This document shows positions 34,962 to 38,292 of a stretch of DNA of 64,000 nucleotides, in pieces. Source of the DNA: Streptosporangiaceae bacterium (lineage in GTDB: Bacteria; Actinomycetota; Actinomycetes; Streptosporangiales; Streptosporangiaceae). Made by a program: the position numbers and the translations under genes. The stretch covers positions 1 through 64,000 of the forward strand of contig JAOPYK010000143.1 in the NCBI GenBank assembly GCA_025964695.1, written 5' to 3'. The notes under the pieces are model-generated. The model made no database searches and was not told where the DNA came from. It worked only from the letters and a program-made list of their open reading frames with translations. Within the stretch, counting starts at the first letter, position 1, and each line of letters starts with the position of its first letter.

Positions 34962-35519
34962 TCAGGTCAGGAGGAGCAGGGTGAGAGCGATCAGCGCGAC
35001 GGTGGCGGTGAGGTTGGTGACCCAGGGCATCCGCACCCCGATCGTCAGGTCCCGATCGGGGTCACGCGACCACAGGGTGAGAGCGGCGGTGAGAGCACGG
35101 CCCAGTCCAAAGGCGGTGCCCACGACGGCGGTGGCCGCGAATCCCTGGTGGCTGAGCAGCAGCCCCAAAGCCAGCACGTAGGGCGCGCTCGCGGAGACGA
35201 AGGTGCGCACCCCGGTGCCCAGCTCGAAGCCGAACTGCAGGGTGCCCACCCGCAGCCGGCGCTGCAGCACGTCCTGCGGGACCTGCCGGGCGTTCTGCGG
35301 CAGCGGGATGCGGATCAGCCCCGCCTCGCGCAGGACGCCGAGCAGCGCGATCCCGAGGACCGCCCAGACCCGGCCGTGCGGGGGAATCGGGGCGGAGAGG
35401 CCGGACAGCAACCACACGGCCGTGGCGCTGACGGTGCCCCCGAGCAGTAGCCCGAGGGTGAAAACGGCCAGGACGGTGCCCTGCCGTACGGGAGCCCGCC
35501 AACCTGGCGAGAACAGCAC
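34962..35519 (-). CDS. Unknown integral membrane protein of the MauE/12-Cys operon
   Basis: 185 residues with four to six hydrophobic segments (about 15-40, 48-65, 112-135, 138-150, 165-184). A central basic loop (LIRIPLPQNARQVPQDVLQR) separates the halves. The C-terminus is a pure hydrophobic run ending LTLLLLT. There is no cysteine to suggest direct thiol chemistry. It is the last gene of the six-gene operon and lies 18 bp after the small membrane-protein gene. No family recognised. Confidence 0.65.
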   Translation of the reverse strand: MLFSPGWRAPVRQGTVLAVFTLGLLLGGTVSATAVWLLSGLSAPIPPHGRVWAVLGIALLGVLREAGLIRIPLPQNARQVPQDVLQRRLRVGTLQFGFELGTGVRTFVSASAPYVLALGLLLSHQGFAATAVVGTAFGLGRALTAALTLWSRDPDRDLTIGVRMPWVTNLTATVALIALTLLLLT

Positions 35520-35537
35520 GCTTTCGCTGTTACGCGT

Positions 35538-35720
35538 TCAAACGGAGCCGGACAGCGAGTAACCCGCCAGCGCGCCCACCGAGGACCAGCAGAGCACGGT
35601 CTGGTCCAGTGCCGCGGCGGCGACCGCCAGCAGGGCCAGGACCGCGACCGGCAGCAGCGGCTCGGTAAGCCCGCGGCGCAGGCGTCCGGCCGTAGTCAGC
35701 TCTTGGGTCAGCTCTTGCAC
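35538..35720 (-). CDS. Small membrane protein
   Basis: 60 residues from GTG 35720, overlapping the 12-Cys gene by 13 bp. It has a polar start (VQELTQELTTAGRLRRGLTE) and two closely spaced hydrophobic stretches (PLLPVAVLALLAVAAAALDQ and WSSVGALAGYSL). A longer frame to 35840 lies inside the 12-Cys gene and is rejected. The one cysteine (TVLCWSS) lies between them. The operon position suggests a role with the exported protein. Confidence 0.5.
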   Translation of the reverse strand: MQELTQELTTAGRLRRGLTEPLLPVAVLALLAVAAAALDQTVLCWSSVGALAGYSLSGSV

Positions 35721-36265
35721 GAGGTGGCCCACCGGCAGATGGTCTTGTAGTAGCTGCCGTGCGAGCTCTTCTTCCAGCCGTCGTGGCAGCGCCAGGTCAC
35801 CGACTTCTTGCAGTTGCCGCAGGGTTGCGCGTACGCCCACGTCCAGCCGTCGTACTTACCCGCGTAGCACTGGTTGGGACGCAGCATGTAACCCGGGTAG
35901 AGGTACTTGGACTTGTGGTAACCCTTGCGGTACCCCGTGGTCTGGCAGCAGGTGGAGCACACCAGGCTGGGCCCGCACCCGGGCGAGCAGTTGTGCGAGC
36001 TCGCATAGGACGGGCACTTGGGATAGACGTCGTAGTAGCCGGCCAGCCGGTAGCCGCCCTCGATGGCCTGCCGGGCCGGCGGGAAGGCCCCGAGCGCGGT
36101 CAGGCCCATCGTGCCGCCGGCGGCGACCAGCCCGCTCAGCAGAGAGCGCCGGGCGAGGTGCAGTGGTGGTCCCTCGGGCGGTACCCGTCGGTGTGCCTTG
36201 GCGGCGCCCTCCGGCCGGGGTCCGCGCAGCGGCGGGATGTCGTCGAAATCGATCAGGTCGGTCAC
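35708..36265 (-). CDS. Tat-type exported 12-cysteine protein, MADH light-chain-like
   Basis: 185 residues. A 38-residue N-terminal region precedes a Tat-like signal (ARRSLLSGLVAAGG) and hydrophobic core to about residue 60. The mature 115 residues hold 12 cysteines (CSPGC, CSTCC, CGNC among them) and are rich in Tyr, Gly and Lys, with several Trp. Size and cysteine count recall the methylamine dehydrogenase light chain, and MauE/MauD-like genes are adjacent, but the sequence is not obviously that protein and no heavy chain is seen. GTG 36265 has GGAGGT 5 nt upstream. Confidence 0.7.
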   Translation of the reverse strand: MTDLIDFDDIPPLRGPRPEGAAKAHRRVPPEGPPLHLARRSLLSGLVAAGGTMGLTALGAFPPARQAIEGGYRLAGYYDVYPKCPSYASSHNCSPGCGPSLVCSTCCQTTGYRKGYHKSKYLYPGYMLRPNQCYAGKYDGWTWAYAQPCGNCKKSVTWRCHDGWKKSSHGSYYKTICRWATSCKS

Positions 36266-36302
36266 CGCACACCTCCGGCTTCGCGTCCCCGCTCACGTTC
36301 GC

Positions 36303-36767
36303 TCATCGGGACACCTCCAGCTTCAGCAGTTCACGTAGTGCGCCGGGGGAGCCGACCGGCTCCGAGACGGTGACCCGGCCGGACTCGCCGACGACGACCG
36401 CGAAGGGCGTCGCGGGGATTTTGTACGCCTCGAACAGCGCGGGCTCGTCGGGGTGCACGGTGACGCCCTCGGAGGGGAGCGCGGCGCCGGTGAAGAGGGC
36501 GTGCACCGCCTGGCCCTCCGATCCGGTCAGCGACTCGGCGGCCGCGAGCACCTCCGGGCAGGCACTGCAGTCGGCGCTGAGGAACAGCAGCAGGGCCGGC
36601 CCGAAGCGATCGAAGCCCGGGGCCTGCGAGCCCGCGCTCAACCCCACAGCCGTGGGCCGGGGACCCTGGCCGAGCGCGTGCACCTGCCGTACGAGTCCCG
36701 CGACGACGAGGCTCAGTAGCAGGATCGCCACCCAGGACAGCAACAGGGCCGTCATTTCGAAACTCAT
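36303..36767 (-). CDS. Membrane-anchored thioredoxin-like protein (MauD/TlpA-like)
   Basis: 154 residues. One N-terminal membrane helix (about 5-28), then a thioredoxin-like fold with CSACPEV (CxxC, about residue 70) and the cis-Pro region IPATPFAVV. This is the arrangement of MauD and other TlpA-type thiol-disulfide proteins acting outside the membrane. ATG 36767 overlaps the MauE-like gene by ATGA. It likely passes electrons or disulfides between the MauE-like protein and the 12-Cys protein. Confidence 0.85.
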   Translation of the reverse strand: MSFEMTALLLSWVAILLLSLVVAGLVRQVHALGQGPRPTAVGLSAGSQAPGFDRFGPALLLFLSADCSACPEVLAAAESLTGSEGQAVHALFTGAALPSEGVTVHPDEPALFEAYKIPATPFAVVVGESGRVTVSEPVGSPGALRELLKLEVSR

Positions 36768-37279
36768 ACGGCGGGGGTCCTCTCCGGGTCGTGCAGTGCG
36801 AGGGGAAGCGTCCAGAGCAGCACCGCGAACACCGCTCCGGCGAGCAAGATGACGGCCAGCCGGCCGCCGTGCGGGAGAGGAGCGGTCCAGACGGCGCCCG
36901 CCAGTGCCAGTGCGGCCAGCGCCACGGCTCTGGCCACCACCCAGCCGGTCAGCCGGGTGTCGCCGGAGCCCGCGCAACCGCAGGGCACCGCGGGCCGGTT
37001 GCGCACGACGTACCACCCGTACAGCGCGTAACCGGTCAGCAGCGCGCAGGCGGCGGCCAGCGCCGGGCGGGCGAAACCGGTCAGCGCCAGCGTGCCCGCG
37101 GCGGCCTCGGCCAGCGCGGTCATGACGGCGATCGGGATGATCAGCGGGGCGGGCAGCGTGCGATGGGCGCGCAGCGCGGTGGTGAGTCCGGCCGGTCGCA
37201 GCAGATGACCGCCGAAGGAGACCAGCAGCACCAGCGGCACCGTGACCACCGCGAGGTCGGCGAGGACGTCGGCGAGCAT
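36764..37279 (-). CDS. MauE-like redox membrane protein
   Basis: 171 residues with four main hydrophobic helices. After the third comes the hallmark Cys motif PCGCAGSGD, matching the CGC(F)G motif of MauE/DoxX-type redox proteins. In methylamine dehydrogenase systems MauE works with MauD in forming disulfides of the light chain. It starts 1 bp after the stop of the upstream unknown gene and overlaps the thioredoxin-like gene by ATGA. Confidence 0.85.
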   Translation of the reverse strand: MLADVLADLAVVTVPLVLLVSFGGHLLRPAGLTTALRAHRTLPAPLIIPIAVMTALAEAAAGTLALTGFARPALAAACALLTGYALYGWYVVRNRPAVPCGCAGSGDTRLTGWVVARAVALAALALAGAVWTAPLPHGGRLAVILLAGAVFAVLLWTLPLALHDPERTPAV

Positions 37280-37280
37280 T

Positions 37281-37973
37281 TCAGTTCAGGATCTCGGCGG
37301 TGAGCCCGGCGAGCCTGCGAGGGACCTCCTGGACGTGGTCCTCGTCGATGGGGAGCACGGTCACCAGCGCGGAGGGGGTGGCGAGCAGGAAGAAGACCCC
37401 CTGATCGTCGAGGGTGTCCTTGAACAGCTCGCCGCCGCCCACCCTCGCGCCCGGCCAGGAGGGCAGCCGGCGGGCGGTCTGCCGGGTGAGGGTGGTGATC
37501 TCCAGCAGGCCCAGGCCGGGCACCTCCTTGACCAGCTCGGCGGGCTCGGCGAGGGCGGCGCGTTTGCGCGGGGTGAAGGCGACGCCGTCGTCGTGCTCGG
37601 TCAGCGTCAGTGCGTTGAAGAAACCGACGGCGTCGGCCGCACGCGCGTGGTAGAGATGAGTGAAGACGGAATACCGGCGGCCCTCCCAGACCGCGGCCAG
37701 CACCCGCTCCTTGAGCCCGGCGTGTGCGTCCCGGAGGGTGGAGTGGCCTATCCGCAGCCGTCCGCCCTGAATGGCGAACTCGTCGTCGAAACCGGTCACG
37801 CCGAGGTCCTCGGCCCAGCCGCGGGCGGCGCCCTGCTCGCCGGAGGTGATCTCGTGCAGCCGGCCGTCCAGTGCGATCCTCGCCACCGAGGTGGCGGGGC
37901 GGCTCAGGTCGAGCTCACCGGACAAGTGGATGCGTTTGCCGTCAAGTGTCCGATGGACGACCCGTGGAGCCAT
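37281..37973 (-). CDS. Unknown soluble protein heading the MauE/12-Cys operon
   Basis: 230 residues, no signal peptide, no membrane helix and no cysteine. It starts [20 protein letters not shown] and looks beta-rich, ending in a helical stretch with [19 protein letters not shown]. No motif recognised. ATG 37973 has GGAGGT 8 nt upstream. As first gene of the operon, a whole stop codon away from mauE-like, it should be functionally tied to the thiol system. It could be a regulator, chaperone or enzyme partner; I cannot tell. Confidence 0.7.
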
Positions 37974-38292
37974 GTGCGGCGACCTCCAGTGGGTAAGGGG
38001 TCATGCGACAGGAGTGACGTTAGTGCTTTGGGCGGGAGTATTCCAAGATCTGCCGAAAATGGTCATCCACGTTCGGTGCGCCGGGCGACCCGGCGCCGGC
38101 GGGCGGGTTCTGTTGGCTTCGCCGGGGCGCCCGGACTCGCCCATGGGGCGTGCTTGCCGCGGCGGGGGACGCGGCCCTGGGTATGGTCGTCTGGCCGCTT
38201 CCCACGCCGCATGTCACCGGCCGGCCGGAGCCCGGCCGCACAGGGACGAGGCTTCGGTGACATGCCCAGGCGATCGACTTCGAGGTGAATCC
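37974..38292. promoter_or_regulatory. Divergent promoter region of the redox operon and dut
   Basis: A 319-bp stretch between divergent transcription units. CGAGGTG at 38281-38287 is the ribosome-binding site of dut. A pyrimidine/purine GC-rich inverted repeat (GGCCGGAGCCCGGCC) occurs near 38219-38235. I see no gene; a DUF3093 gene, often found here in relatives, is absent. Confidence 0.5.

Follow-up and report, generated by a model that had tools for sequence, protein, structure and literature searches.

What does a set of genes resembling the maturation genes of methylamine dehydrogenase do in a genome in which the subunits of that enzyme find no match, and how many proteins does it actually encode? 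The question is raised by an operon on the minus strand (positions 34962-37973) of the window, by which we mean the whole stretch of DNA analysed here, 64,000 nucleotides of a Streptosporangiaceae bacterium (assembly GCA_025964695.1, contig JAOPYK010000143.1, positions 1 to 64,000). A preliminary description of this stretch had listed six tightly packed minus-strand genes, encoding a soluble protein, a MauE-like protein, a CxxC thioredoxin-like protein, a twin-arginine translocation (Tat) protein with 12 Cys and two further membrane proteins. The packing and the first four products are indeed seen, and the operon is real and conserved, its membership being beyond chance across 40 related loci, but its predicted genes are five: the last two open reading frames (ORFs), g5 and g6, form one frame interrupted by a TGA and, by all sequence evidence, are best read as a single MauF-like protein containing selenocysteine (Sec, U). 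A selenoprotein had thus been missed, and this hidden protein outweighs in importance the dedicated MauE/MauD system that had been recognised.

ORFs g5 (35538-35732) and g6 (34962-35519) lie in the same frame with a single TGA between them (35538-35540), and reading through this codon yields a predicted selenoprotein of 256 residues (secMauF, 34962-35732, minus strand), the gene of which overlaps the end of g4. The nearest in-frame stop upstream of the MauF-like core motif was read in 96 motif matches; it proved to be TGA in 91 of them (66 different contexts, with some loci entered twice) and never TAA or TAG. The five other matches were two proteobacterial MauF genes, two loci of a single genome with Cys at the site (L082 and L098, genome G252) and L048; this last locus and four others that the motif pattern had missed or misread (L011, L054, L110 and L115) all carried TGA when read individually, so that, two Cys genomes apart (G252 and G162), all actinobacterial loci read have TGA at the site. 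The linker across the TGA has one length in all 53 loci with both ends matched (a set that includes window copies and twice-fetched loci), and its flanks are kept in otherwise very divergent cassettes, as SGS[VT]-U-xxNS or, in the most distant ones, as [ST]WSP-U-G. In 40 of 48 sequences, a GTT codon stands immediately 5' of the UGA.

The homology to MauF spans this codon. In profile comparisons (hhalign), g6 alone matched MauF with 96.25% probability (E 2e-9, none of 60 column-shuffled controls scoring as high), and the read-through g5-U-g6 matched it with 97.99% (E 2.3e-13) over 180 columns across the membrane domain, the TGA residue falling on the Cys of the MauF motif WSPCG; this gain in similarity, together with the placement of U on a Cys, supports one gene. 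At the aligned position 68 of 72 distinct proteins have U and 3 have Cys, two of these being proteobacterial MauF, and the 72nd, from L048, is misaligned owing to a frame break downstream of its UGA, perhaps an assembly error; Cys also occupies the UGA site in L099. The motif at the site reads SGSVU in the window and WSPU in relatives associated with LGFP-type cargoes (see below). The predicted protein is thus a MauF homologue with selenocysteine at the conserved Cys of MauF, a protein whose function is, to our knowledge, obscure. None of the six read-through sequences tried reached the cut-off of an NCBIfam family, and neither the read-through protein of the window nor Paracoccus MauF has a Pfam match.

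A conserved RNA element follows the predicted Sec codon. Among 48 distinct sequences, most of codons +1 to +14 after the TGA (but not +2, +5 and +6) are held at synonymous sites, and the codons preferred there are seldom used in the rest of the stretch (CCA in 45 of 48 at its place and a single time outside it; GGT in 46 of 48). The element is a predicted hairpin (CGCCA-GGU-UGGCG, 35496-35510, minus strand) of the selenocysteine insertion sequence (SECIS) type, and its GGU apical loop, its 6-bp stem and the 33 nt from the UGA to the loop agree with the bacterial SECIS model as it appears in excerpts of PMC13188914, a model that also asks for a minimum free energy no higher than -7.5 kcal/mol. 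Covariation was assessed on 14 distinct versions, taken from both close and remote cassettes and placed in register by us, with the LGFP-type versions (stem offset by one) excluded: pairing holds in 84 of 84 cells, three pairs are altered on both sides, the covariation score was reached by none of 500 shuffles, and slid registers fail. A second possible hairpin, at 35512-35531 between the UGA and the SECIS loop, is predicted when 45 nt are folded and not when 57 nt are.

The machinery for Sec insertion is present in the genome of the window: our search, which covered SelA, SelB and tRNA-Sec, found selB (255.8 bits), selA adjacent to it and a tRNA-Sec gene (72.3 bits) on the same contig, a different one from that of the cassette. 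ARAGORN and Rfam saw no tRNA-Sec in the initial 9 kb of the selAB contig; the gene lies at 13.3 kb. Across 76 genomes, with SelA counted if above the profile cut-off, SelA was present in all 34 genomes with a UGA MauF (33 selected as such plus G195, read afterwards), in neither of the two Cys genomes (G252 and G162) and in 9 of the 39 that gave no MauF match (20 named as empty and 19 of the same class assumed empty, being listed without an LGFP-type cargo), a few of which may hide a MauF, as the UGA MauF of G195 escaped the same screen; G660, also SelA-positive, was not assigned to any class. For the first 33 UGA genomes the association gives p 2.4e-12 (Fisher test, relatedness ignored), and within one genus (g85) SelA accompanies the cassette in 2 of 2 genomes and is found in 0 of 8 without it (p 0.02). 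The Rfam search for tRNA-Sec was noisy, with some match in all 76 genomes, and its scores were at least 56.5 bits in the 34 UGA genomes, above 69 in the 9 genomes with SelA but no MauF match and at most 48.4 in the other 30, the Cys genome G162 being ambiguous at 55.2 bits. Physical linkage is seen in some genomes: in 6 of the 34 UGA genomes (G412, G318, G087, G111, G033 and G190) a tRNA-Sec gene is located at most about 8 kb from the cassette, and selA adjoins the LGFP-type cargo in G195.

Formate dehydrogenase, the sole other selenoprotein searched (54 genomes, E 1e-50 or better), is encoded with a UGA in 11 of the 34 genomes with a UGA MauF and without one in 4, that of the window included, and gave no match in 19; each of the 9 genomes that have SelA but gave no MauF match has the UGA enzyme. 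A Sec-containing MauF may thus explain why 23 of the 34 genomes hold Sec machinery without a Sec formate dehydrogenase. If correct, the reading would add a membrane-embedded MauF family to the bacterial selenoproteome, the gene of which is split into two ORFs by ordinary gene callers.

We next consider what such a protein would do. The genes around it are those of a Mau-type maturation set: g2 (36764-37279, minus strand) is a MauE homologue with a PCGC motif (PF07291, 64.4 bits against a cut-off of 27; hhalign against MauE 98.1%, E 8e-14, 0 of 60 shuffles as high), and g3 (36303-36767, minus strand), which shares an ATGA overlap with g2, is a MauD homologue with an N-terminal hydrophobic anchor and a CxxC thioredoxin-like domain (CSAC), aligned over 153 columns, that is its full length with the hydrophobic N-terminus (99.06%, E 1.6e-18, 0 of 60 shuffles). 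They precede g4 (35708-36265, minus strand), which carries a twin-arginine leader (ARRSLL) and 12 Cys in its mature part and occupies the position of mauA, the order g2-g3-g4 being the mauE-mauD-mauA order of Paracoccus and four other records. Only g2 matches a Pfam or NCBIfam family above cut-off; g1, g3, g4, g5 and g6 do not. In the 40 related loci, g4, g5 and g6 are each present in all 40, g3 in 38, g1 in 37 and g2 in 36, the absences being mostly contig-edge effects (L055 and L058, which start there, and L042, where g1 is missing at an edge) and g2 falling under the BLAST threshold in L022 and L030. The view that a MauE/MauD-type system is dedicated to one 12-Cys Tat protein is borne out by this co-conservation and by the profile matches.

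The first gene, g1 (37281-37973, minus strand), encodes a soluble protein of 230 aa. Its AlphaFold2 (AF2) model (predicted local distance difference test, pLDDT, 93.2) is mixed alpha/beta, with a strand-helix pattern repeated twice as judged by eye; a fold search gave a middling best Z of 6.9, with PsbP, EagT6, DcrB and LpqN at Z 4.9-5.4. Several of these matches we take to form a group of Mog1/PsbP/DcrB-like proteins, the chaperone EagT6 among them, and g1 is a candidate cytosolic chaperone for the cargo. As a relative of MauJ, g1 was rejected (42 of 60 shuffles scored as high).

Altogether, these results make it very probable that the operon encodes a Sec-dependent MauF/MauE/MauD-type membrane machinery for the oxidative folding of one exported disulfide-rich protein. 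SecMauF, MauE (CxC) and MauD (CxxC) would pass thiol/selenol redox equivalents across the membrane, secMauF supplying a selenol where MauF has Cys, and this relay would drive the formation or isomerisation of the disulfides of the Tat-exported cargo outside the cell; g1 may chaperone the cargo in the cytosol before export, and the folded cargo would remain in the cell wall, a location suggested because some relatives carry peptidoglycan-binding or LGFP domains. Sequence comparison establishes the homology of the parts, and the relay and its substrate are what we infer. Such a pathway would give MauF a testable role and would show a Mau-type maturation set that exists apart from methylamine dehydrogenase.

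The properties of the cargo bear on this proposal. The g4 protein, 185 aa long, has a pattern that is conserved throughout its mature region: 10 of the 12 Cys are kept in all 45 sequences compared, and the other two are lost jointly in 6 of 45 (Actinoallomurus and sampled relatives), as expected of a disulfide pair, in a count that left out two window copies, three N-terminally shortened loci and identical duplicates. W141, W143, H161 and D162 are invariant in 22 aligned sequences, the last two within the segment R159-C160-H161-D162, which is likewise invariant. Structure prediction, which had been proposed as a check, was run (AF2, 39 mature sequences) and returned a pLDDT of 45.7 with no meaningful fold match; sequence searches of Pfam, NCBIfam, PADLOC and the PDB gave nothing convincing, and g4 was not found in plasmids or viral contigs.

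With its 12 Cys, its Tat-type leader and its place in a mauEDA order, g4 could instead be a divergent catalytic subunit like those of methylamine dehydrogenase, carrying a quinone derived from Trp or Tyr, with its partner subunit encoded elsewhere, which we consider unlikely. At the sensitivity of hhalign, homology between the mature part of g4 and the light chain of that enzyme was rejected (0.56%, with 10 of 60 column-shuffled controls as high, and 33 of 60 once two Thermomicrobium sequences were added), in line with the absence of a PF02975 match in the genome, and the 52% reached by full-length g4 is confined to the leader, a generic Tat feature. Relatives of the LGFP type do show a match to the light chain if leaders are kept in the comparison (94.95%, E 4.1e-8, 0 of 30 shuffles), with a shared CPPGT...W pattern, but the match drops to 3.0% (1 of 60 shuffles) or 8.3% (0 of 60) without leaders, so that a relationship of these cargoes to the light chain is likely rather than established. 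In the genome of the window, neither the light chain (PF02975; 5 control genomes matched, none over cut-off) nor MauG (PF03150, CCP_MauG; 2 control genomes matched over cut-off) was found. The earlier statement that no heavy chain is present agrees with the lack of a PF06433 match, a weak result as no control genome matched either; the Trp- or Tyr-derived cofactor also suggested earlier found no support, the evidence in g4 being neither for nor against it.

Cassettes of other genera carry different Cys/Trp/Tyr-rich Tat cargoes, which have W-x-W and RC[HSA]D-like motifs in common with g4. Their mature parts match that of g4 at 62.7% (E 7e-5, 0 of 60 shuffles); with leaders the match rises to 98.5% (E 1.9e-15), one of 30 shuffles scoring higher in global mode and none in local mode. 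Cassettes of the same kind with a divergent Tat cargo (L067 and L089-L097) all have a UGA MauF and occur twice per genome in G318, G190 and G094. In L065 (f18/g85), two PG_binding_1 domains come after the g4 domain, and L066 looks alike by eye. The LGFP-type group (L098-L101 and L110-L130, in 23 of 296 genomes of the phylum) consists of Tat proteins in which one domain is particularly rich in Cys; the three complete proteins that were counted have 24 to 26 Cys. LGFP repeats come after this domain in 4 of 4 tested (L098-L101), and some other members differ C-terminally. A TGA at the end of the cargo in L126, L128, L129 and L130 was considered as a further Sec codon and rejected, these being real stops with no homologous sequence beyond, as judged by eye. 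One maturation set thus seems to act on a range of Cys-rich exports, several of which have wall-binding domains. In its widest form, which we favour by a narrow measure, a widespread actinobacterial SecMauF-MauE-MauD pathway would make disulfides, and possibly a Trp/Tyr crosslink, in wall-bound exports, and would be the main reason why many actinobacteria keep Sec machinery.

This variation among cargoes could also be expected if g4 were the precursor of a Cys-rich antimicrobial or signalling peptide, tailored by MauE and MauD in a pathway for ribosomally synthesised and post-translationally modified peptides (RiPPs). There is a precedent: in the excerpted text of Kloosterman et al. 2020 (decRiPPter, PMC7794033), three candidate RiPP families of Streptomyces have mauE, one of them also mauD, beside precursors with at least 8 Cys, for which the excerpts report no tested function and do not mention MauF or selenium. 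Such a reading is quite improbable for a 185-aa Tat-type protein that is patterned over its whole mature part, with 10 of 12 Cys invariant, whose relatives continue into PG_binding_1 domains (L065) or LGFP repeats (L098-L101) and whose cassette has dut as a neighbour in 36 of 42 loci. The decRiPPter families, which may be different loci, nevertheless resemble the operon in having MauE, once MauD, beside a Cys-rich small protein, so that the earlier statement that no described system has this composition is nearly right and has to make room for them.

Several observations weigh against a Sec-containing MauF acting in the folding of g4. TGA is the stop of 203 of 218 other operon genes, so that TGA alone proves little and its count at the site is weak evidence. 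The 15-nt hairpin has -6.8 kcal/mol, short of the -7.5 limit, which is reached only with an extra pair (17 nt, -8.9), and the folding energy of a 57-nt stretch of the window is unremarkable (z -0.44, single sequence). A tRNA-Sec gene near the cassette was not seen in 28 of the 34 UGA genomes, that of the window among them. The fold match of g1 is weak; gene order and co-conservation, and only these, suggest that the machinery acts on g4; and Sec in the MauF-like protein is a prediction from the nucleotide sequence. That g5 and g6 are two translationally coupled membrane proteins, the TGA being an ordinary stop followed after 18 nt by a GTG restart, fits the commonness of this stop, the usable GTG in g6 and the coupling-like overlap of g5 with g4, yet is very improbable given the fixed linker, the amino acids kept on either side of the TGA in very divergent loci, the MauF homology that spans it with U on Cys, the covarying hairpin and the distribution of SelA (present in all 34 UGA genomes and in neither of the two Cys genomes).

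Read as a secMauF operon, the locus is most readily compared with the mau cluster of Paracoccus denitrificans (mauF-mauB-mauE-mauD-mauA), with which it shares the MauF, MauE and MauD homologues, the mauE-mauD-mauA order and an exported 12-Cys product with a long twin-arginine-type leader. It differs in that Sec replaces the Cys of MauF, the MauF gene comes last, a soluble g1 is added, light chain, heavy chain and MauG find no match, and the mature cargo is not detectably homologous. A likeness to the CcdA/DsbD carriers (PF13386/PF02683) appears in the MauF relative of L100, which passes DsbD_2 (26.5 and 25.7 bits against 24.9), whereas the protein of the window has no Pfam match; the Cys pair typical of CcdA is not seen in it. 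With the bacterial SECIS selenoproteins described in the excerpts of PMC13188914, a 2026 review of prokaryotic selenoproteins, the gene shares an in-frame UGA, a SECIS-type hairpin, Cys homologues and co-occurrence with selA and tRNA-Sec. The table of that review, which covers 119 families, has no MauF entry, the nearest by name only being TsoB (rhodanese/DsbD fusion-like) and a PF13098 thiol:disulfide interchange protein; in the open-licence PubMed Central literature as excerpted, nothing pointed to a MauF selenoprotein either, and the word MauF is absent from the excerpted text of Zhang et al. 2006 (PMC1794560). Passages of Peng et al. 2016 (PMC5029168) list Actinomadura atramentaria and Streptomyces ghanaensis among organisms with an orphan SelD and state that some Sec users appeared to be without known selenoproteins.

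The 40 related loci are mainly from Actinomadura, with Actinoallomurus, Spirillospora and a few metagenome-assembled genomes, and g4 is carried by 14 of 150 sampled genomes of the family of the window, its own counted. The cassette adjoins dut and DUF3710 in 36 of the 42 loci tested; of the six without a dut neighbour, L037, L042, L055 and L058 have short flanks there, and L065 and L066 belong to another family. Between dut and g1, an alignment of 22 upstream regions revealed a putative promoter-like element (TGACCA...TAACGTCA, 38015-38065, minus strand) that is kept in Actinomadura-group genomes. The genome of the window (G000) has five more MauE-family matches on other contigs, two of them under cut-off. 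Beside the cassettes of L067, L090 and L097, genes resembling extracytoplasmic function (ECF) sigma factors with membrane-anchored partners were noticed by eye. Finally, a plasmid of Thermomicrobium roseum (NC_011961, L102) carries an array of light-chain-like genes, one of them unannotated, set among mutually similar 'hypothetical' proteins of about 400 aa that are perhaps heavy-chain-like.

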